From the IMG/VR virus record IMGVR_UViG_3300049893_001531, positions 1 through 26,173 of that record: a DNA stretch of 26,173 bases; one strand, 5' to 3'. A program made the translations under genes and the position numbers. This DNA comes from a virus. Positions 7,165 through 22,699 of the stretch are shown here, in pieces; the stretch's first letter is position 1, and every line of letters begins with the position of its first letter. The notes under the pieces were generated by a model. It was given only the letters and a program-made list of their open reading frames with translations. It was not told where the DNA came from and did no database searches.

Positions 7165-7646
7165 ATTTTGTCAATCTCGTGAACTATGGTCCGTTGAAGT
7201 GCGCCCATTTTGTCCTTGTCGTGCATAACTTCGCCATGCAGAGCCACTATCCACAGTCTAGAGCCGCCCCATTTCCATGGACAAAGTGAAGCATGCAATG
7301 CATGTGCAGAGCAAAGCAGTAGTGGTCCTTTCACTATTTCCATGGCTCCGATTTGACGGGGTGCGCCACTATTACATCCTGGCGACAGATCATTTTTGGA
7401 CTTCCAGAACGCCAGTGTAGCACCGGCTGCTTGCAGCTTAAGCGCTTCCGGGCTGGCATATGCTTGTAGGTAGGCAATGGCTATATCAGCTGTTTTTTGA
7501 TCGCCATAGCCATCGCCATAGCTATAGCCAGAGCCATAGCCAAAACCAGAGCCAAAACCAGAGCCATAGCTATAGCTATAGCCATCGCCATAGCCATCGC
7601 CATAGCTATAGCCAGAGCCATAGCCATAGCTATAGCCTATCCCCAT
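7158..7646 (-). CDS. Gly-Tyr repeat protein with C-terminal phage domain
   Basis: A 162-residue protein. The ATG at 7646 is chosen because GGAGAAG lies 5 nt upstream; frames from 7685 or 7661 lack this. Residues 4-49 are pure low complexity: alternating G/S/D with Y or F (GYSYGYGSGYSYGDGYGDGY). The rest (50-162) is an ordinary globular sequence with C112-SAHALHASL (112-121), a Trp-rich loop, LWIVALHGEV (131-140) and a helical end, similar to a small domain I recall from phage accessory genes (DUF7666-like, unverified). The start overlaps the upstream stop by 10 nt. The repeat may drive phase separation or simply link an extended tail; this is unknown. Confidence 0.7.
   Translation of the reverse strand: MGIGYSYGYGSGYSYGDGYGDGYSYSYGSGFGSGFGYGSGYSYGDGYGDQKTADIAIAYLQAYASPEALKLQAAGATLAFWKSKNDLSPGCNSGAPRQIGAMEIVKGPLLLCSAHALHASLCPWKWGGSRLWIVALHGEVMHDKDKMGALQRTIVHEIDKIW
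7496..7646. repeat. Hexanucleotide low-complexity repeat (Gly-Tyr coding)
   Basis: About 150 bp of degenerate 6-bp units, GGCTAT, GGCTCT, GGCGAT or GGTTTT on the minus strand, encoding G-Y/S/D/F pairs. All units stay in frame. The tract is prone to slippage, so length may vary between related phages. It also creates false open frames on the plus strand. Confidence 0.85.
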
Positions 7647-7930
7647 GGTTGCTTCTCCCATGCGGCGGTAGCTTCCGGCGTGCAAGTCATGATACTTGTC
7701 ACGTCAGTTAAAATCAGATCTGGGGCTGCTTTAGTGATTTTACAGGCAGAGTCAGGACCGGTCACAGAGAGTCCAACAACTCCTTGAACATTAACAGACC
7801 AGTAGACGCACATGCGCGCCTGAGTTAAGGTTACTATTTTATTGTCAGGGATATTAGCTGAGCCGTACCCGAAGAAAACCCCTTTGTGAGCAGTCGTAAC
7901 TACAAGCCCTATTTTTTTTTGTTTTGTCAT
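7637..7930 (-). CDS. Conserved phage hypothetical protein (DUF6948-like)
   Basis: A 97-residue protein. The ATG at 7930 sits in TAATG with the previous stop, and AAGGAA lies 6 nt upstream; a longer frame from 7963 is not supported. The N-terminus, KIGLVVTTAHKGVFFGYG, and the following strand/loop pattern (DNKIVTLTQARMCVYWS) match a small beta-rich family I recall from phage early regions, often beside Gly-Tyr-rich proteins. The family name is from memory and was not searched. Function unknown. It is encoded in tight overlap between an HTH-like gene and the Gly-Tyr protein. Confidence 0.65.
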   Translation of the reverse strand: MTKQKKIGLVVTTAHKGVFFGYGSANIPDNKIVTLTQARMCVYWSVNVQGVVGLSVTGPDSACKITKAAPDLILTDVTSIMTCTPEATAAWEKQPWG

Positions 7931-8394
7931 TATTTTTCCTTTGTTTGTGGGACTTTCCAGCAATAGACTGTCCCGTTATTGCTAACCGAATATTCCACGA
8001 TTAATTTATTATCGCGGAAAGCTTGCAGTTTACTACCAGGCTTGAGAGCCTTGGCAAGCTTATGCAAGTTTACAAGTGAGTTACAGCGTCCTTGCTCATG
8101 GGTGCCGTCAAGATACGTTGTAATGGTGGCGTATCTGTCAGTGTGTTCAGTAGCACGGACGCGGGTGTATTTAGTGATCTTTCGACCACTGCCAATCTTA
8201 GGCTGGAAGAACAGCTTAGGATCAAGGGTTACGGGCACACAGATGCGTCCGTAGAAGTGTTTATAGTCGCTAAAGCGGCAAGACAGACGAGCCGCCGCGA
8301 CACGATAGCGAATCATGTGTAGGCGGCAATAGTCTGCCAATGTAATCCACCCTTCAGGGAGTGGAGGGCTAGGTGAAGGGGAGCGACTAGTCAT
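7930..8394 (-). CDS. Probable winged-helix DNA-binding protein
   Basis: A 154-residue protein. The ATG at 8394 has AGAGGGG 5 nt upstream and overlaps the previous stop (ATATGA); the longer frame from 8505 has no ribosome site. Residues about 12-50 (EGWITLADYCRLHMIRYRVA, then FYGRICVPV) resemble excisionase/MerR-like short helix-turn-helix domains: a helix, a recognition helix, then a wing strand. The same N-terminal pattern (EGYIPLSRWCEQH) occurs in the gene at 11541-11239. The C-terminal half is basic with predicted beta strands. A regulator of early genes is plausible but unproven. Confidence 0.6.
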   Translation of the reverse strand: MTSRSPSPSPPLPEGWITLADYCRLHMIRYRVAAARLSCRFSDYKHFYGRICVPVTLDPKLFFQPKIGSGRKITKYTRVRATEHTDRYATITTYLDGTHEQGRCNSLVNLHKLAKALKPGSKLQAFRDNKLIVEYSVSNNGTVYCWKVPQTKEK

Positions 8395-8648
8395 ATGATC
8401 CCCTCTCTGAAAGCCCAATGCCATAGACGCATATCTGTGGCGTCTATACAAGCCTCTCGGGAGCTTTCCCCGAGAATCTGTACGAGACTCTCTGTGAGCC
8501 ACCATCTGCCGTCATCGGTTAGACGGAGGAAGTTGTCAATACACCCCGCAGGGGTTTCCTGCAAGGAACACTTTGATTCCTCCGAGATACACTCGGAGGA
8601 ATACTGATTGTGCGTGGTGCACCACGCGTCAAAAAATAAGATGTTCAC
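8391..8648 (-). CDS. First gene of leftward operon, hypothetical
   Basis: An 85-residue protein starting with GTG at 8648. AGAGG lies 6 nt upstream and the gene sits about 50 nt behind a strong leftward promoter, so the non-ATG start is well supported. It contains six Cys (C10, C20, C27, C36, C67 among them) and two Trp-rich patches (DDGRWWLTESLV, RLWHWAF), giving a compact, possibly metal-binding protein. No family is recognised. As the promoter-proximal gene of an early-type operon it is a candidate host-takeover factor, by position only. Confidence 0.6.
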   Translation of the reverse strand: MNILFFDAWCTTHNQYSSECISEESKCSLQETPAGCIDNFLRLTDDGRWWLTESLVQILGESSREACIDATDMRLWHWAFREGII

Positions 8649-8695
8649 GTTTTACCTCTTTGCCCCATGCGGGGCGATGTGTGTTTTCTAAATTC

Positions 8696-8724
8696 ATGAT
8701 ATCACTTATCTAAGCTCGTGTCAA
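8696..8724 (-). promoter_or_regulatory. Strong leftward sigma70 promoter
   Basis: On the minus strand: a perfect TTGACA (8724-8719), a 17-bp spacer, then TATCAT (8701-8696) with TGn at 8704-8702. The -10 region contains GTGATATCAT (8705-8696), identical to the core of the divergent promoter palindrome at 134-143. It drives the operon 8648-6176. It is the best promoter match in the window. Confidence 0.75.
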
Positions 8725-8962
8725 ATGCCTTGTGTTTTCAAGCTTTTCTGGACTTTTCAGAGTTTCAAGGATATGTGTGCATAGTACTAGACACGGAATT
8801 GGAGCTAGCATGCACTTTTATTAACCATTGAGTTACATGCAAGCTGCCGCTTGTACTTTGGTTTAATGAAGGGAATCTTGAGCGCTGCGCTAGGCGAGTC
8901 TGCCATCTAGAGGGGGTTAAAAAAACCTCTATGCTCCGCTTAGGACCAAGCTACAGGGACAA
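8725..8962. other. Intergenic stretch with T7 tract and short palindromes
   Basis: No credible gene. Read leftward, a run of seven T (8925-8919) lies about 40 nt after the stop of the 8963-9265 gene and is flanked by TAGAGG (8908-8913) and CCTCTA (8926-8931). It may act as a weak terminator, though the stem before the T run (GCTT/AAGC) is short. AGCGC-T-GCGCT at 8881-8891 is a small palindrome. Nothing else stands out. Confidence 0.4.
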
Positions 8963-9265
8963 TTAAGAGAAGTTTTTCAAGCTCTGGATTAAAGTGTTAT
9001 CTGAAGCAGAGTTATGTTGTTTCTTGTACCAATAACCTTGAGTTTTATTCCACCAATATCTATGACTTTTAAGCAGAGCAATAATATCTGTACCAGGGTA
9101 GTCACTAAAGATGAATCTATTAGGGTAGACAGTGACTTGAACACCGTTAGGTAGTAAGGCATCTAGGAGAGGGTCTGAGGGATAGGAGACAGTGACTTCC
9201 CCGCCGGCAGCTATACCGTTAACCCCTGTACCCAAGTCTACGATACTAGTCCTGAGCATACGCAT
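8963..9265 (-). CDS. Isolated leftward hypothetical protein
   Basis: A 100-residue protein with AAGGGGA about 8 nt before the ATG at 9265; an ATG two codons later is an alternative. The sequence shows a beta-rich centre (GGEVTVSYPSD, GVQVTVYPNRFIFSDY) and an aromatic C-terminal part (YWWNKTQGYWYKK), suggestive of a small globular protein. No family is recognised. It lies between a long non-coding region and the promoter of the next leftward operon. No convincing promoter was found upstream, so it may be transcribed through the non-coding region. Confidence 0.6.
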   Translation of the reverse strand: MRMLRTSIVDLGTGVNGIAAGGEVTVSYPSDPLLDALLPNGVQVTVYPNRFIFSDYPGTDIIALLKSHRYWWNKTQGYWYKKQHNSASDNTLIQSLKNFS

Positions 9266-9480
9266 AGGTACACTTCCCCTTAATCTCCATACAAGTATAT
9301 TTTAGCTACAGAATGTACGTACTACACTCGGCTTGGAGCCTCGTTTCGTACGAATTAGTTAATGTATCGGTATGTTCATGATATTAACAACACTTGCCTT
9401 GAGGGAGCGAAGCGTTCGCTATATGCAGCTGATTAAACGAGCGAAGATGTTAAGCTGAAGCAGGAAGCGCGCGATACTCA

Positions 9481-9528
9481 GTCTCAGTTACTTGCCTCTC
9501 GGTCGTTCGCGCTTCGCGAAGCTGAGAC
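9481..9528. repeat. Nested hairpin, outer 7 bp and inner 6 bp
   Basis: GTCTCAG (9481-9487) pairs with CTGAGAC (9522-9528). Inside, TTCGCG (9506-9511) pairs with CGCGAA (9515-9520) across a 3-nt loop. The perfect nesting suggests a stem-loop arm of an RNA or a protein-binding cruciform. Confidence 0.7.
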
Positions 9529-9778
9529 AACATCAAGCGAGCTACCTTGTTGTTTTGTTACACTCTAGCGAGTGTTCTAATATGTCAGAACAGTCTCTCA
9601 TTGTCTAGGCTCTGTGTCTTATCTTGTAGCTTAGTTATTTAATCTATTGGCTAGGTAAGTGTGTCTATCGTTTTATTTGACGGTTATTTGATTGCATTGA
9701 TTGGTTAAGCGTTATCTCTTTACATCCTCCTGCCTCTCTCTGCTTGTTCGAGGCTCTAGAGTATCGGTGTGAATAATT

Positions 9779-10027
9779 GAGCCGAGGTAAATTGGGGTCG
9801 GTACCATAAAGGATTGTGTGAGCAACAAACCAATCCATTTACGCCACAGAAACTGTGCGAGGTTCTGACATAAGAACAGACCGAAGGTCTGAAGGCTTCT
9901 AGTGAATAAGTCACCAGACTTAATTCACATTAGAGGGAATTGAGAAAACTAGAAGGATTGAGGCGCGAATAGGAGAGTTAAGGACATTAGCGACAGGCGC
10001 TCCATTCTCGCGCCGAAGGCCTTCTAG
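9779..10027 (+). ncRNA. Core of a candidate ornate structured RNA
   Basis: A chain of adjacent stems covers most bases: GTAAAT/ATTTAC (9787-9792/9837-9842) stacked on GGATTG/CAATCC (9811-9816/9831-9836); CACAG-AAA-CTGTG (9845-9857); GTTCT/AGAAC (9862-9877); CAGACC-GAA-GGTCTG (9877-9891); an 11-bp stem with one bulge (9902-9928); and a long arm CTAGAAGG/CCTTCTAG (9949-9956/10020-10027) enclosing GGCGCGA/TCGCGCC (9962-9968/10008-10014) and GGAG/CTCC. Loops and linkers are purine-rich on the plus strand, which favours plus-strand RNA. The strand is an inference. No known RNA class could be assigned by eye; size and phage context recall GOLLD/ROOL-type RNAs. Confidence 0.45.
9891..10027 (+). repeat. 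Repeated GAAGGC(C)TTCTAG, alternative pairing partners
   Basis: GAAGGCTTCTAG (9891-9902) and GAAGGCCTTCTAG (10015-10027) are near-identical. Either can pair with CTAGAAGG at 9949-9956, so two mutually exclusive helices are possible, as in RNA switches. Confidence 0.6.
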
Positions 10028-10078
10028 AAAATAAACGTATTCGCACGTTGATTCCATGATTAAAGGGGTAGGTTTTTT

Positions 10079-10151
10079 AACATATTGTTACTAAAATTAT
10101 TTCACTAGCTAATTCTACTACGTTTCGGGGAGTTTATTATCACAATATGTT
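10079..10151. repeat. 10-bp perfect inverted repeat with 53-nt loop
   Basis: AACATATTGT (10079-10088) and ACAATATGTT (10142-10151) are exact reverse complements. They could close an RNA domain or form a paired operator. The T6 tract at 10073-10078 directly precedes the left arm. Confidence 0.7.
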
Positions 10152-10164
10152 ACGATTCGTGTTT

Positions 10165-10231
10165 AGGGGTTTATTTCTCTAGTGATTGTGCTCTACCCCT
10201 CTGTTATTAGGTTTAAGGGGATTTTACCCCT
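10165..10231. repeat. Two tandem similar hairpins with AGGGG/CCCCT stems
   Basis: AGGGGT/ACCCCT (10165-10170/10195-10200) and AGGGG/CCCCT (10216-10220/10227-10231) are preceded by GTTTA and followed by CTCT or TCTT, so the unit appears duplicated. The second hairpin starts 1 nt past the stop of the leftward gene at 10233 and may be a weak leftward terminator, but its following T tract is poor (TTAAACC). Confidence 0.55.
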
Positions 10232-10232
10232 C

Positions 10233-10460
10233 TTATTCATATCCTTGCCACCTGTACACACCACTCCCGAGAAGGAAGATATGCTTACCTTCTTTCTTAT
10301 CAAAATAGTTGTCTAATACTAAAAGCTCTGGCGGACACTTACACAATCGTTCCTTTAGCCTCCCCTGTACCATTGTTGAAATACCTATGCCCCTTGGCTT
10401 CATCTCTGGTAGGGTTATGAGCTTGTTGCATTTACCGCATCTCAAGAGCTTAGTCGCCAC
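10233..10460 (-). CDS. Small zinc-ribbon-like protein
   Basis: A 75-residue protein starting with GTG at 10460; AGAGG lies 3 nt upstream and the start overlaps the previous gene by 19 nt. C8-x2-C11 at the N-terminus and C40-K-C42 later form a likely zinc-binding four-Cys set, followed by a basic and aromatic C-terminus (KHIFLLGSGVYRWQGYE). It resembles treble-clef or zinc-ribbon accessory proteins of phages, perhaps nucleic-acid binding. It is the last gene of the leftward operon that starts at 11930. Confidence 0.6.
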   Translation of the reverse strand: MATKLLRCGKCNKLITLPEMKPRGIGISTMVQGRLKERLCKCPPELLVLDNYFDKKEGKHIFLLGSGVYRWQGYE

Positions 10461-10743: not shown

Positions 10744-10901
10744 GCTATTCCACTTACCACCGGTGCATTAGCTAATAGTTCTAGTAGTTTCTTCGCCAGA
10801 CTTGAGGCTTCCTTGTGTGCATCTTCGTATGTTTCATACTCCATGACTGGGATCCTGCCTTGTCCGTGGTTTTCGCGAATAATTATGTAATGTGCTTTCA
10901 T
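10740..10901 (-). CDS. Small hypothetical protein, 53 residues
   Basis: The ATG at 10901 overlaps the stop of the RusA-like gene (ATGA) and AGAGGT lies about 10 nt upstream; the longer frame from 10922 is not needed. The pattern MKAHYIIIRENHGQGRIPVM followed by EYETYEDAHKEASSLAKKL is a strand-then-helix arrangement typical of small phage proteins with an edge strand and an amphipathic helix. The gene at 11930-11538 has a similar style (KQAHLEAEKYAKNNPG). Function unknown. Confidence 0.6.
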   Translation of the reverse strand: MKAHYIIIRENHGQGRIPVMEYETYEDAHKEASSLAKKLLELLANAPVVSGIA

Positions 10902-11359
10902 TTTGTTCTTACCTCTATCCAAACACCCTCTAACTCTTTACCTTCACACCACTCTTTGCTTAATTGCACAGATGCAATCTGACAATCATCCACCCAAACA
11001 ATATCGCTTAATGCATCTTCGGTGCCCCGCCACAGCTTCGTTAGGTCTGGCTTATACGTATGGTCCATTGGCACTGATGGCTTTAGTTCATGCGAGTTTT
11101 TCCCTGTTCGATAATGAGACTTCGGACGAGCTAAGTAAAACTCTGCAATTACTTCTAGAACTCCTGAAACGGGATGCCCCTTCGATATCTTCTGATATTG
11201 CTCTCTAGCAGTCTTAGCTACTAATTCCTTCCACCCTTTTACTTTGTTGCTGGCTTCCACCAAAACAACCCGTTTGGAATTTCTGATGGGGAGCATTTTT
11301 TTGCTTCCCCCTGGCGCTGGTTCACCAAAGACTCGAATCGCTGTAACAAGTCTGGACAT
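10898..11359 (-). CDS. rusA: RusA-family Holliday junction resolvase
   Basis: A 153-residue protein, close to the usual length of RusA enzymes, which dimerise and cut Holliday junctions during phage recombination and genome maturation. The ATG at 11359 has AAGGAAG 7 nt upstream. The family signature is clear: HTYKPDLTKL (100-109), TEDAL (113-117) and IVWVDDCQI (120-128). Acidic residues D105, E114/D115 and D124/D125 are candidates for the metal site. The second Asp of the usual PDxDN motif is replaced by Thr107, with Glu114 as a possible substitute. The gene start overlaps the upstream HTH gene by 121 nt, an unusually long overlap. Confidence 0.85.
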   Translation of the reverse strand: MSRLVTAIRVFGEPAPGGSKKMLPIRNSKRVVLVEASNKVKGWKELVAKTAREQYQKISKGHPVSGVLEVIAEFYLARPKSHYRTGKNSHELKPSVPMDHTYKPDLTKLWRGTEDALSDIVWVDDCQIASVQLSKEWCEGKELEGVWIEVRTK

Positions 11360-11541
11360 GAATAATCTTCCTTTATAAATAGGTGCGTACCTATGCGAAT
11401 ACACGGCAATATCATCCGCTGGACTTGAGCGCCACAATATGCTCTAAATCTCTTGTTGGTCCCTGTCGGAGCATGCTGCTCACACCACCGAGATAGTGGT
11501 ATGTATCCTTCTGGCGCTTTAATCCTGTCTGCGTGGCTCAT
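11239..11541 (-). CDS. Small HTH/excisionase-like protein
   Basis: A 100-residue protein. The ATG overlaps the upstream stop (ATATGA) and AAAGG lies about 9 nt upstream. Residues 10-55 (EGYIPLSRWCEQHAP, then YCGAQVQRM, LPCIRIGTHLFIKED) match the layout of short MerR/excisionase-like domains: helix, recognition helix, wing. Its N-terminal pattern parallels the gene at 8394-7930. The last 40 residues (about 60-100), Lys/Glu/Ser-rich, overlap the RusA-like gene in another frame and may be a disordered tail. Likely a DNA-binding accessory or regulator. Confidence 0.6.
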   Translation of the reverse strand: MSHADRIKAPEGYIPLSRWCEQHAPTGTNKRFRAYCGAQVQRMILPCIRIGTHLFIKEDYSCPDLLQRFESLVNQRQGEAKKCSPSEIPNGLFWWKPATK

Positions 11542-14245: not shown

Positions 14246-14471
14246 ATACATGCAATTACTTGCTAATCTCATGTATCACGCAGCAACGCAGATGGATTAT
14301 TGGAGCAAGGTGCATAACTCTTTATCGAAAGTTTTAGAGGCTAACGAACAACAAGAAAAAATCATAATTGATCTCGAGAACGAACTATCTTGGTGGAGAC
14401 GCAGGCATAGACGAAGTATAAAGGCAGCTTATAACATGCCGCCGCCTGGTGAGGCATTATGCCAGGAGTAA
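14223..14471 (+). CDS. Short coiled-coil protein of the packaging block
   Basis: An 82-residue protein that overlaps both neighbours (23 and 13 nt). GAGGG lies 9 nt before the ATG. Residues 25-60 have heptads rich in Leu, Glu and Gln (LSKVLEANEQQEKIIIDLEN), ending in a basic patch (WWRRRHRRSIK). The acidic coiled coil plus basic patch suggests a DNA- or protein-binding helper. No family is recognised. Confidence 0.6.
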   Translation: MNKQAQTEYMQLLANLMYHAATQMDYWSKVHNSLSKVLEANEQQEKIIIDLENELSWWRRRHRRSIKAAYNMPPPGEALCQE

Positions 14472-16285
14472 AGCGCACAGCTTCCACGCCGCAAATAATC
14501 ACACCTAAACTTAATGAGATTAGGCGGTTTGCTGCACATAACACTGATGCTTTTGTGCAGAAGTTCATGAAAACGATTGATAAACGCACAGCTAAAGCAA
14601 TCCCTTTTAAGTACAAATTCGGACAACAACAAGTAGCAAAAGTTATCGAGGAAGTTAAATCTTCTGGCGATCCGCTTCGTCTGTACATATTGAAATCAAG
14701 ACAAATAGGTATGTCTACAATGATTGCCGCTAGGCAGTTTGTGCATACTTGGGCGAACAATAACATGGAAGCTGTTATTATCGCTCACCAACAGAAACGA
14801 GCAGAAGAGCTATTACAAAGAGTCAAGTTCTTCTATCAAGCATTGCCTGAGCCGCTAAAGCTAGTTCTCTCGCAAGACAGCAAAGACGGACTCATGTATG
14901 CTGACACCCGCGGTTCTATGATCATTGTTACTGCTAATAACTTTGACGCTGCTCGCGGTGGCACAAAGCAACGCGCCATGTTCTCAGAGTTTGCGTATTA
15001 CAAAAATGCTCTTTATGTTCTCTCGGAAATAGAGCAGTTAATAGCCTTTGACCCTGCAACAGAGATTATTATTGAAACCACAGGCAAGGGGTATAACTCG
15101 CCCGCTCATCAGTTCTGGGAAGCAAGCAAACAAGGGCGAACTCCTTATATTGCCCTGTTTCTTCCTTGGCAAGACGACCCTGATTGCACATTCTTCTTTG
15201 AATCTGACAGACAGAAGGATACATATATTGGCACAGCATTAGATTATGAGCCGCGCCTGAAAGATCACGGTGAATATCATCGCTGGACGCCTGGCAATTT
15301 ATACTGGGCGTACACGGTGCTTAGAAACCAGTGCCACGGCGATTGGGAGAAGTTCAAGCGCGAATACCCTTCGGATGACAATGAAGCCTGGACAACAAGC
15401 TCTACTAGCTTCTTCGGTGGCGAGAACCTTAACAAGCTGCATCCTAATGAGTTTCCCGCTCAATACTATGTATACGGAACAGGGGCATCATTAGGTGAGC
15501 AATTCGATAGTTGGGACATGCTCGATACAGTCAAGAAAGTAGATGAAAATGGTTCAAGACCTTTCTTCAAAGTCTGGAGTCTTCCTCACCCAAATGGACA
15601 GTACATAGTCTCCGGAGATTCTGCTCATGGCGCCGAAGATGGCAACTTTACAAGCTCTTTTGTGATTGACATGTACACGCTTGAGATGATGGCAGAGTTT
15701 CACGGCAGGATACGTCCTGATGAACACGCTTCCGTTATTGCGTCCCTATGCGGAATTTACAATGATGCTATTGCGGCGCCTGAGTATAACCAACCTGGCA
15801 ACGTCACATTGCTTGAATTACAGCGGCGCTTCTCTGTGAACCTGTACAGATATAAGCGCATGGATGATTATAAATTCCGTGCATCGCGCTTCTTGGGTTG
15901 GCAAACGAATCACGTTACAAGACCATTAATGCTTGCTCTTGCTAAGCGCATAATAGAGGACTTAGCAGAAGGCAGAGTCACCAATCTAGGTATTGTTAAA
16001 TCTTGGGCTCTGGTACAAGAGATGATGACATTCGTAACTGATGATGAGACAGGCAGAGCAGAAGCCATGTCTAATTGCAATGATGACAGGGTAATGGCAT
16101 GGGCAATAGCTATCATGGTCGCTAGCCAGGAGACGCACGGCAGCGAACGTGATATCTTAAGCCTGTATAAAACTTCTACCCCGGATTCCAATACAAAGTT
16201 ATTGTTCGGTGATGACAGCAAATACACCACTGACCCGGAGGATGTTATTGCAAGACTGTCTGCAAGAAGGAATGAGCTTATTTAG
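14459..16285 (+). CDS. terL: Terminase large subunit (ATPase-nuclease motor)
   Basis: A 608-residue protein with GAGG 5 nt before the ATG. It pumps and cuts phage DNA during packaging. The N-terminal ATPase shows a variant Walker A KSRQIGMST (79-87), a Walker-B-like stretch RAMFSEFAYY (172-181, with E177) and a coupling motif ETTGKG (206-211). The C-terminal nuclease has an RNase H-like layout: D387 in VSGDSAHG, E442 in APEYNQ and D542/D543 in NDDRVMA. Length and domain order fit tailed-phage terminases. The Walker A lacks the classical GxxxxGK form but keeps the Lys-Ser-Arg-Gln variant common in this family. This is the surest call in the window. Confidence 0.95.
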   Translation: MPGVKRTASTPQIITPKLNEIRRFAAHNTDAFVQKFMKTIDKRTAKAIPFKYKFGQQQVAKVIEEVKSSGDPLRLYILKSRQIGMSTMIAARQFVHTWANNNMEAVIIAHQQKRAEELLQRVKFFYQALPEPLKLVLSQDSKDGLMYADTRGSMIIVTANNFDAARGGTKQRAMFSEFAYYKNALYVLSEIEQLIAFDPATEIIIETTGKGYNSPAHQFWEASKQGRTPYIALFLPWQDDPDCTFFFESDRQKDTYIGTALDYEPRLKDHGEYHRWTPGNLYWAYTVLRNQCHGDWEKFKREYPSDDNEAWTTSSTSFFGGENLNKLHPNEFPAQYYVYGTGASLGEQFDSWDMLDTVKKVDENGSRPFFKVWSLPHPNGQYIVSGDSAHGAEDGNFTSSFVIDMYTLEMMAEFHGRIRPDEHASVIASLCGIYNDAIAAPEYNQPGNVTLLELQRRFSVNLYRYKRMDDYKFRASRFLGWQTNHVTRPLMLALAKRIIEDLAEGRVTNLGIVKSWALVQEMMTFVTDDETGRAEAMSNCNDDRVMAWAIAIMVASQETHGSERDILSLYKTSTPDSNTKLLFGDDSKYTTDPEDVIARLSARRNELI

Positions 16286-17089: not shown

Positions 17090-17524
17090 ATGTCGAACGA
17101 AACTTTATTGGCTTTGGGTATTGCCACTTCTTTGTTTGCAATGCTTCTATCTGTGCTATGTATTGCTCTCTTGCATGCGTGGCATGGGCGCTTCTTTGAC
17201 ATGAAAGATACTCTTTCCGGGTTATCAATTTCCGATACTCTTTCAAAAGAAAGGCAGAAAGACCTAGCCGTCGAGATAGACGCGCTCAAGAAATTAGTCA
17301 GTGAATCGCTAGGCATGGTTGAGCCTGGCTATTACATGGAGTCAATTAACCCTGCTACAAAAGAAAGAGAGATCATCAAAGTCGACAAAGACGGAGCTTG
17401 TGCATACTGTCAGCTAGGGGCTTGCCGCGCTCACGGAAAAATGGAAACCCTTTGGGGTGTTGACCAGGCAGTAAAAGAAGCGGATGATTTACTGGCGGAG
17501 GTGCTACCAGATGGACGAAGATGA
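17090..17524 (+). CDS. Membrane-anchored protein with CX2CX4CX2H motif
   Basis: A 144-residue protein. Residues 4-30 form one transmembrane helix (LLALGIATSLFAMLLSVLC), then comes a charged helical stalk (about 50-75). The C-terminal part has C104-x2-C107-x4-C112-x2-H115 (CAYCQLGACRAH), likely a small zinc site. The same spacing recurs in the gene at 19514-19714. A membrane anchor with a cytoplasmic zinc knuckle between terminase and portal genes is unusual. Its role is unknown. Confidence 0.6.
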   Translation: MSNETLLALGIATSLFAMLLSVLCIALLHAWHGRFFDMKDTLSGLSISDTLSKERQKDLAVEIDALKKLVSESLGMVEPGYYMESINPATKEREIIKVDKDGACAYCQLGACRAHGKMETLWGVDQAVKEADDLLAEVLPDGRR

Positions 17525-19451
17525 ACTTGAATATGGCATGCCACGGTTAACTATTGCAGAATACGAGCAGTATCAAGAAGCTCCGCAATGGGAAAGGGAT
17601 GGTTACTCATCAGAAGATGCTTATCACGAAGATTGGGCATCAAAGATCCATACCTGGCAAAAGGCATACGATAGTCATTTCAAAGAGACAAAAGACCGCT
17701 GGAAAAGCGCTATTGAATACATAGAGACTGCGCCTAAGCGCACTTTCGATACTTACGCCCCTGACTCCACGCTAGCAGATAGCCGTATTCCTTTTGCGTT
17801 TTTTAGCATCATGGAAAAAAATGCTCTGCTTTATTCTAACTATCCTATCCCTATATTCATTAGCCCCGGCAAGGATACTGACATCTATGCTATGGCATTG
17901 AATCAATGCACGCAGATAGAGCTAAAGGCAAATAACTTTAGCGCTCTAATGTTTGATGTTGGCTTAGATGTCGGTATTGCAAATCTTGGGGTACTGAAAG
18001 TATGGGTAGATCCTGACCAGAAGGGACCATACGGGCAAGATGGAAAGATAGTTATTGAAAAGATTGATCCTTCCAAGATGGCATTTGACCCGAAAGCAAA
18101 GCGTCTGCGTTGGGAGAATCTAGGCTATGTGATTGCTACTGAAGAATATGACCTTGGCACGGCTAGGCGGATATTCAAAGGCAGCGGGCACAGGCTTACG
18201 GAAGCTATGGCAATGCGCCAAGACTCAGACGATAAAGACAAAGGCTCTATGTACGGGTCTTTTCTGACTAGCCCCGTTCCTAACCCTATGGAAGGTAATG
18301 CTTCTAATAGAAATAGGGTGCTTATTAGAGAATGCTGGTTCAAAGATGAACGATTGAAGTTTGAAGCGTTTGAGGAAACCGTAGATAATTCTGAGTTTAT
18401 CCTTAGTGATGATGGCTTTAGAGAGCCTAACCCGGATTATGATCCTGAGCGCGAGGAAATATATACTCGCCCTAAAACAGACGAGGCCGGCTTTGTGATA
18501 GGACATATGGTGCAAGCGTATCCTAATGGGCGATGCATTATCACTGCAAACGACTCAGTAGTTGTCAGAGATTTCGAAAATCCTTTCTGGCACAAGCGGG
18601 CCCCTTTTATATTCTTCAAGACCCGCCCTAGCAAAGGCTTGGTAACGACAGGGGATCTTACTAACTTAATAGTCATCGACCAGAAGTTAAATGATATTCT
18701 GTCTCGCATTCATACGATGGCACAAAACGAAATTGAACGTCCGATGATAGCTGAAACTAATACGTTCAGGACGCCTCGGGCTTGGATGAAGATGACCGGG
18801 CAAGCCACAGCTGTATTAGTAAAGAATGCTGGCAAAGAGTTTGGGCGTATGCCGTTCATGGAAATCCCTAGTTTCGTCTGGCTATATTTGCAACAACTTT
18901 ATGCTGCCTTGGATAAAGTCATGGCAGTAGCAGGAGTTATGCGCGGACAACTAACCGAAGGCTCACAGCTATCAGCCGAAGCAGTCGGAGACTTACAAGG
19001 TATGGCTAGTTCTATTCTTAAGATGCAGGCGGATTTAGTATCTGAAGGAATGAAAGAGCTAGGTTATCAAATGTCTTGGCTGGAAAGACAGACATACAAG
19101 TTCAATATCCCTCTAACTATCACCTTGCCGGACGGCGAGAAAGAGCAGCTAGAGTGGAACGAGAAAGACGCTGCGGCAGACTATATAGTTGATATACAAC
19201 CTGGCTCTGGAATGCCTGGATCTAATCAAATGCAAGTATCACAAGTATTGCCGCTATACAGAGAAGGTCTCATCGACCAGATGGCAGCGCTCACGGCGAT
19301 TAAATGGCCGGACAAAGACGAGATTGTCCCCCGCATGCAAAAGAATAAGCTGGCTAAGATTGAATCAGCCGCAGCAGGTAAGGCTATGGGCACTGTCATT
19401 AAACAGTTCGAAAAAACAGACGGTTCTGCTGGCAGAAAAGAAAAACCCTAG
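17511..19451 (+). CDS. Portal protein
   Basis: A 646-residue protein starting at ATG 17511, with GGAGGT 8 nt upstream; the longer frame from 17484 is not supported. It overlaps the previous gene by 14 nt. It sits between terminase and scaffold/capsid genes and has the length and layout of podovirus portals: an acidic N-terminus, a mixed alpha/beta body with KIDPSKMAFDPKAK and FENPFWHKRAPFIFFKTRP, then a helical C-terminal region (VAGVMRGQLTEGSQLSAEAV). Portals form a dodecameric ring through which DNA enters the head and which binds the terminase and tail. No frameshift is seen. Confidence 0.85.
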   Translation: MDEDELEYGMPRLTIAEYEQYQEAPQWERDGYSSEDAYHEDWASKIHTWQKAYDSHFKETKDRWKSAIEYIETAPKRTFDTYAPDSTLADSRIPFAFFSIMEKNALLYSNYPIPIFISPGKDTDIYAMALNQCTQIELKANNFSALMFDVGLDVGIANLGVLKVWVDPDQKGPYGQDGKIVIEKIDPSKMAFDPKAKRLRWENLGYVIATEEYDLGTARRIFKGSGHRLTEAMAMRQDSDDKDKGSMYGSFLTSPVPNPMEGNASNRNRVLIRECWFKDERLKFEAFEETVDNSEFILSDDGFREPNPDYDPEREEIYTRPKTDEAGFVIGHMVQAYPNGRCIITANDSVVVRDFENPFWHKRAPFIFFKTRPSKGLVTTGDLTNLIVIDQKLNDILSRIHTMAQNEIERPMIAETNTFRTPRAWMKMTGQATAVLVKNAGKEFGRMPFMEIPSFVWLYLQQLYAALDKVMAVAGVMRGQLTEGSQLSAEAVGDLQGMASSILKMQADLVSEGMKELGYQMSWLERQTYKFNIPLTITLPDGEKEQLEWNEKDAAADYIVDIQPGSGMPGSNQMQVSQVLPLYREGLIDQMAALTAIKWPDKDEIVPRMQKNKLAKIESAAAGKAMGTVIKQFEKTDGSAGRKEKP

Positions 19452-21670: not shown

Positions 21671-22699
21671 ATGGCAGTATTAACCCCGGATACTATTGAA
21701 ACAGAGATTCTACCTCAGTTCGACCGCGAACTAGTAGATGACCTGTTTATGTCGACAGCCCTATTTGAGTATATGTGGGATCGGGTTGATCCTGTCCCTG
21801 GCGGCTTGGTGATTAAGCAACAGATTTCATATCTGGCTTCACCTAATGCTGATGTGTTTGCAGGTGGTGTATCTGAATTACCAGCAAGCTTTGTAGGTAA
21901 TGCAACCACTACCACATTCCCGCCATGCTATTACTTCTATAGTATTGCGATTCCGGAGACTACGCGCATTCTAAACGAAGGCGAAGGCTCCATAATCGAT
22001 ATTATCGCTGCTCAATACGAGCTAGCATTGATGTCTTTGAATAACGTTCTAGGGCAAGATGTTTACGGCGATGCTACCCCACGTAATGGTGGACCTACTC
22101 TTTCAGGATTAGGGCAAGCGATTACTTTTGGAGCTGATGCAGCCGGGGGAGCTTATGGTGGTATTTCCCGCGTAGGTTCATCTGGTTCATTCAAAGCCCC
22201 TGTTGGCAATGCAGCATTCTGGAATAGCAACGCTCTGGTTATTAACGGCGGTGCTCAGACCGTTTGGGCTGGCACTGTTGACACTGGCGCAGTAACTACT
22301 TTATCTATTGGAGCTATGCAAGCGCTAGTTTCGGTTTGTACAGTAGGTCAATTCCGCCCTGATGTTATCTTCACAGATTTGATTGGCTTCAACGCCTACC
22401 ATAATCTGCTAGTTCAGACAGTGCGACAAGCGCCGATAGCTAATATAGGTCGTCAAGGCTTTACAGGACTAGCATATGCGGATCTTATCGTTGTTAAAGA
22501 TGATCAGTGCCCAACAGGTACTATGTTCGCTCTAAACAACATGCTTAAGTTCCGCCCATGGAAGGGTGGCTTCTTCCGTCAATTGCCTTGGAGACAACCA
22601 CCAAATAGCTTGGTGAATATCAAGTATGGCTTGCTCATTGCAAACATGACTCATACAAGACCAAACACATTAGGCAAACTAACCGGTATTACTGGTTAA
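21671..22699 (+). CDS. Major capsid protein
   Basis: A 342-residue protein behind a very strong ribosome site (AAAGGAAGG). Position (after portal and scaffold), length and pattern fit an HK97-fold coat protein: the N-terminal arm ETEILPQFDRELVDDLFMST, the inner part with FPPCYYFYSIAIPETTRI, and a P-domain-like segment FRPDVIFTDLIGFNAYHNLL. The C-terminal end has FFRQLPWRQPPNSLVNIKYG. It forms the head shell. The 23-nt leader ACAAAGGAAGGTA and on to the ATG is almost repeated before the next gene, so both products are probably made in large amounts. Confidence 0.85.
   Translation: MAVLTPDTIETEILPQFDRELVDDLFMSTALFEYMWDRVDPVPGGLVIKQQISYLASPNADVFAGGVSELPASFVGNATTTTFPPCYYFYSIAIPETTRILNEGEGSIIDIIAAQYELALMSLNNVLGQDVYGDATPRNGGPTLSGLGQAITFGADAAGGAYGGISRVGSSGSFKAPVGNAAFWNSNALVINGGAQTVWAGTVDTGAVTTLSIGAMQALVSVCTVGQFRPDVIFTDLIGFNAYHNLLVQTVRQAPIANIGRQGFTGLAYADLIVVKDDQCPTGTMFALNNMLKFRPWKGGFFRQLPWRQPPNSLVNIKYGLLIANMTHTRPNTLGKLTGITG

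Follow-up and report, generated by a model that had tools for sequence, protein, structure and literature searches.

The largest gap in the contig studied here, 967 bp at positions 9266-10232, contains no gene and matches no known RNA family, and its right-hand part (9877-10232, the core) folds beyond its dinucleotide shuffles. The explanation that we favor, tentatively, is that the gap is transcribed leftward into an untranslated structured RNA that belongs to no known family. This reading is most credible for the core. The significance of the predicted fold, the nesting of its long-range helices and the better folding score in the direction in which the flanking genes are read make a structured RNA plausible.

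The contig and its gene-free stretch

The window, meaning the whole stretch of DNA that was analyzed, is the complete IMG/VR record IMGVR_UViG_3300049893_001531 (26,173 bases). It is a fragment of a tailed phage, in which these genes were identified:

14459-16285, terminase large subunit
17484-19451, portal
21671-22699, major head protein
10898-11437, minus strand, RusA-like resolvase

Between 11960 and 6176 the genes point leftward; in the rest of the window they point rightward. Two relatives were found in IMG/VR, a 36-kb contig (head protein 68%, terminase 47%) and an 8.7-kb contig (terminase 56%), and no prophage relative was found in the genome collection. Annotated phages gave only distant matches for the terminase (23-28% among the matches listed) and the head protein (27%), and none for the portal or a 582-aa virion protein. 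Near the left end of the window, two near-consensus promoters stand face to face at 115-170 (115-143 on the plus strand, 170-142 on the minus strand), and a perfect palindrome of 7 bp lies at 134-151. Small leftward ORFs at 7930-8395 and 11239-11541 have in common, by eye, the motif PEG(W/Y)I(T/P)L..(Y/W)C..H and are possible paralogues.

The stretch and its neighbors are as follows:

9266-10232, minus strand, gene-free stretch of 967 bp, candidate untranslated structured RNA; no ORF, no family match
8963-9265, minus strand, ORF of 100 aa directly downstream of the stretch; coding by codon score
10233-10460, minus strand, ORF of 75 aa directly upstream of the stretch; weak codon score, no family

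The gap is about three times as large as the next in the contig (the next largest being 314 and 228 bp). Its longest stop-to-stop frame is 70 aa, and all ORFs starting with ATG, GTG or TTG have 57 aa or fewer. The frames tested showed no match in Pfam or PHROG and no trace of a decayed gene; the codon score picked out no coding frame and none resembling the structural genes, and no long frame was opened by reading TAG or TGA as sense. An earlier note on this DNA had described about 1 kb without a credible ORF between two leftward genes, and this description holds on both counts. The downstream ORF, 8963-9265, has a codon score of 0.12 in frame, versus -0.54 to 0.003 in the other frames, and no Pfam or PHROG match. 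The upstream ORF, 10233-10460, carries a CxxC...CxC pattern that looks zinc-ribbon-like by eye.

Hairpin density and folding significance

Stems in the stretch were compared with those in 200 dinucleotide shuffles. Perfect stems of at least 6 bp with loops of up to 20 nt numbered 11, against 3.5 +/- 1.7 in the shuffles, none of which reached 11; with loops of up to 60 nt the counts were 22 and 11.4 +/- 3.6. At any distance, there were 13 stems of at least 8 bp (6.1 in the shuffles) and two of at least 11 bp, where 0.08 would be expected; these two perfect 11-bp helices speak for the RNA reading.

Folded whole, the 967 nt gave a z of -3.9 leftward and -2.6 rightward (60 shuffles each), while other segments of this size range from about +2 to -5.8, some coding segments reaching -4 or beyond, which counts against the RNA reading. 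The core reached z values of -4.97 leftward, -3.24 rightward and -5.91 as single-stranded DNA, and none of 100 leftward shuffles folded as well. Among the 137 segments of 356 nt in the window, the leftward core ranks second, behind a hexanucleotide-repeat coding stretch at 7477. (The tandem repeat itself, 22.5 units at 7503-7637, encodes a leftward protein rich in GYGSGYSYGDG.) Within the stretch, z was -5.28 for the domain 9877-10027, a modest -2.4/-2.1 for the domain 9576-9877, whose structure depends on an 11-bp helix with a span of 270 nt, and -1.3, no better than shuffles, for 9266-9575, the 3' third in the leftward reading; the values for such pieces are somewhat flattered because the pieces were picked after the full fold had been seen. 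The share of unpaired A in the fold equals that in shuffles and is therefore uninformative as a sign of RNA.

The series of adjacent inverted repeats at 9811-9928 and the nested ones at 9481-9528 and 9949-10027 that the earlier note had listed are all present. Its broader claim of dense hairpins stands as an excess over shuffles but not as a uniform property, since the excess is concentrated in 9877-10232 and absent from 9266-9575. The kilobase is gene-free and its excess of hairpins is real, but such density is not special to it and is also seen in ORF 8391-8648.

That ORF coincides with seven consecutive strong hairpins at 8391-8690, within and just before it, with a z of -4.5 leftward and -5.7 rightward, which makes this array stronger than the gene-free stretch. 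The array includes an 11-bp perfect stem at 8576-8602 and the hairpin GCCCC GCAU GGGGC near the presumed transcript start, and it has no Rfam match. Three features argue that ORF 8391-8648 is real: a promoter upstream of it, a ribosome site, and a stop codon that overlaps the start that follows. Its weak codon score means that it might be mis-called. Should it be a gene, dense hairpins in this phage are found in coding sequence too, and because an equally dense array lies inside it, hairpins as such are not proof of noncoding RNA here. The upstream promoter is the best of the window (8724-8696, leftward, TTGACA-17-TATCAT, near-consensus with a TG extension) and would start the next leftward unit, 8648 to 6176. 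It lies in a second gene-free gap, 8649-8962 (314 bp), just downstream of ORF 8963-9265, the middle of which is not hairpin-rich.

Predicted fold of the leftward strand

Mutual nesting is seen among the strongest helices of the predicted leftward fold, whose pair probabilities range from 0.78 to 0.99. The elements, all on the minus strand and from right to left except for the last line, are:

9877-10232, structured core, 5' third of the leftward RNA; z -4.97, rank 2 of 137
10213-10221, 5' half of a possible closing helix, UCCCCUUAA
10062-10202, nested hairpin with a 10-bp outer helix (10202-10193/10071-10062); pair probabilities 0.94 and 0.83 for outer and inner helices
10152-10142/10088-10078, inner 11-bp helix of that hairpin
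9949-10027, hairpin of stacked helices, 8 + 8 + 4 bp; pair probabilities 0.95-0.99
9902-9928, hairpin of two 5-bp helices with a bulge and a UGGU loop; pair probability 0.93-0.94
9877-9891, perfect 6-bp hairpin with a triloop, CAGACC UUC GGUCUG; pair probability 0.98
9576-9875, long-range domain with a 270-nt interior, 11 perfect bp (9872-9862/9591-9581) plus short flanking helices; pair probability 0.98
9575-9560 and 9528-9481, hairpins
9275-9283, 3' half of the possible 9-bp closing helix, perfect complement of 10213-10221; pair probability 0.78
9896-9903, second copy of ACUAGAAG, an 8-bp perfect complement of 9948-9955; direct repeats

The stacked hairpin at 9949-10027 consists of 10027-10020/9956-9949 (CUAGAAGG/CCUUCUAG), 10014-10007/9969-9962 (GGCGCGAG/UUCGCGCC) and 10003-10000/9975-9972 (GGAG/CUCC). 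CCUUCUAG (9956-9949) could pair either with 10027-10020 or, after a one-base shift, with 9903-9896, since CTAGAAG(G)CCTTC occurs as a repeat. Alternative pairing of CUUCUAG (9949-9955) could thus make a two-state switch, a possibility read from one sequence. A UUCG tetraloop in CAGACCUUCGGUCUG was considered as a mark of the leftward strand and rejected; the element is a 6-bp stem with a UUC triloop instead.

Read from right to left, the RNA would begin with a chain of hairpins (9877-10232), continue into the long-range domain (9576-9877) and end in a 3' part of weak structure (9266-9575). The stretch would form the untranslated part of a leftward unit running from the RusA-like resolvase gene (10898-11437) to ORF 8963-9265, and its role would most likely be that of a phage-encoded structured noncoding RNA, either processed free or kept in the transcript. 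Its ends may be closed by the helix 10221-10213/9283-9275, which overlaps the ribosome site of ORF 8963-9265: the AAGGGGA sequence sits in 9275-9283 and may be hidden by the pairing.

The leftward strand has the better z for both the stretch and the core, in agreement with the way in which the two neighboring genes are read. It counts against the RNA reading that folding beyond shuffles is also seen for the rightward strand and for single-stranded DNA, the reason being that most of the helices are perfect palindromes. Promoter-like matches within 9266-10232 are weak, so the stretch is most simply read as co-transcribed from the upstream operon; that no strong promoter or clear leftward terminator was found to bracket it is a further point against the RNA reading.

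Comparison with known RNAs and search for homologues

With cmscan at the gathering score, none of the 4227 families of Rfam 15, OLE included, matched in the window. A permissive search of both strands (E up to 5) gave nothing credible, the hits being unrelated eukaryotic families at chance level. ARAGORN found no tRNA in the 26 kb and no tmRNA. The resemblance to GOLLD and ROOL proposed in the earlier note is therefore not borne out. The stretch shares with GOLLD a size of roughly 0.8-1 kb, a gene-free phage setting and many helices, and with ROOL the character of a large phage RNA with a multi-helix structure. However, it has no match to the GOLLD covariance model at E up to 5 and none to ROOL in Rfam, and no homologue of it was found. 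In phages, tRNA islands are often found in the neighborhood of GOLLD and ROOL (PMC12286853). GOLLD occurs in phages or prophages, in many cases but not always close to tRNA genes; the present contig is from a phage but carries no tRNA. A multimeric RNA cage is a further feature of ROOL.

Blastn of the stretch against phage and plasmid collections returned only chance pieces with E of 3-4. IMG/VR scans, whose queries were the proteins TerL, MCP, portal and RusA, three flanking ORFs and a DNA motif of 18 nt, and further scans of genomes gave no homologue of the stretch and only the 36-kb and 8.7-kb relatives, neither of which reaches it; the absence of a homologue counts against the RNA reading. 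By a rough gene call, the 36-kb relative has no gap above 341 bp. A covariance model built from the single sequence 9877-10027 and run against 20 sources had no match outside the window, and its second match within the window is the palindrome itself.

Alternative explanations

Structured leaders and RNase III processing hairpins occur in the early operons of phages, and the stretch resembles these in placing hairpins between co-directional genes, one of them touching a ribosome-binding site. It could be a long intercistronic leader that acts only in cis and controls how ORF 8963-9265 and the genes after it are translated or processed. We regard this as somewhat unlikely. In its favor, the start codon at 9265 follows the stretch immediately, a 9-bp complement allows UCCCCUUAA (10213-10221) to mask the AAGGGGA site, and the two partners of 9949-9955 are mutually exclusive, as a switch in CUUCUAG would have it. 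However, the stretch is much longer than typical leaders and RNase III hairpins, and 967 nt ahead of a 100-aa ORF would be exceptional. The pairing against the ribosome site would span 929 nt in a sequence where runs of G and C are common, and while the 12 closing pairs exceed the 0-9 seen in 40 leftward shuffles, up to 13 arose in 25 rightward ones.

A spacer that carries no selected RNA structure, recently acquired or decayed and lying in a leftward region that is palindrome-rich in general, is in our judgment unlikely. It would account for the near-shuffle folding of the 3' two thirds, for the array in ORF 8391-8648 and for the lack of a homologue in the searches, but not readily for a core with a z near -5 and no equal among 100 shuffles, nor for the two 11-bp helices. 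Phages seldom keep 1 kb of spacer, and the frames tested hold no remnant of a gene. The palindromes could instead be cruciforms or protein sites in a DNA-level element such as a replication origin, or a recombination or partition site, and this we hold to be improbable. Such an element agrees with the perfect palindromes, with the fold of single-stranded DNA being as significant as that of RNA (z -5.9), with a local peak of the cumulative GC skew near 9751-10250 and with the resolvase encoded nearby, a nuclease of branched DNA. However, the GC skew partly follows gene direction, the stretch has no iterons or tandem repeats, and no replication initiator was identified among the genes tested on the contig, so that the stretch does not have the makeup of an iteron-type origin. 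Helix interiors of 270 and 929 nt do not make cruciforms and speak for RNA; in duplex DNA, the 11-bp helix spanning 270 nt has no obvious meaning.

Significance

Very large phage RNAs fall into few known classes, and in two of these the RNA forms a cage whose function is unknown (PMC12286853). In our view it is rather unlikely that the RNA reading holds in its strongest form, in which an uncharted phage lineage carries a large noncoding RNA of up to about 960 nt that belongs to a new class, has no relation to GOLLD or ROOL, is closed in its architecture and possibly contains a switchable helix. What single-sequence folding provides here is a defined candidate, the core 9877-10232 on the leftward strand, not a discovery. 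If true, a further class of large RNA would help to show whether such RNAs are common.
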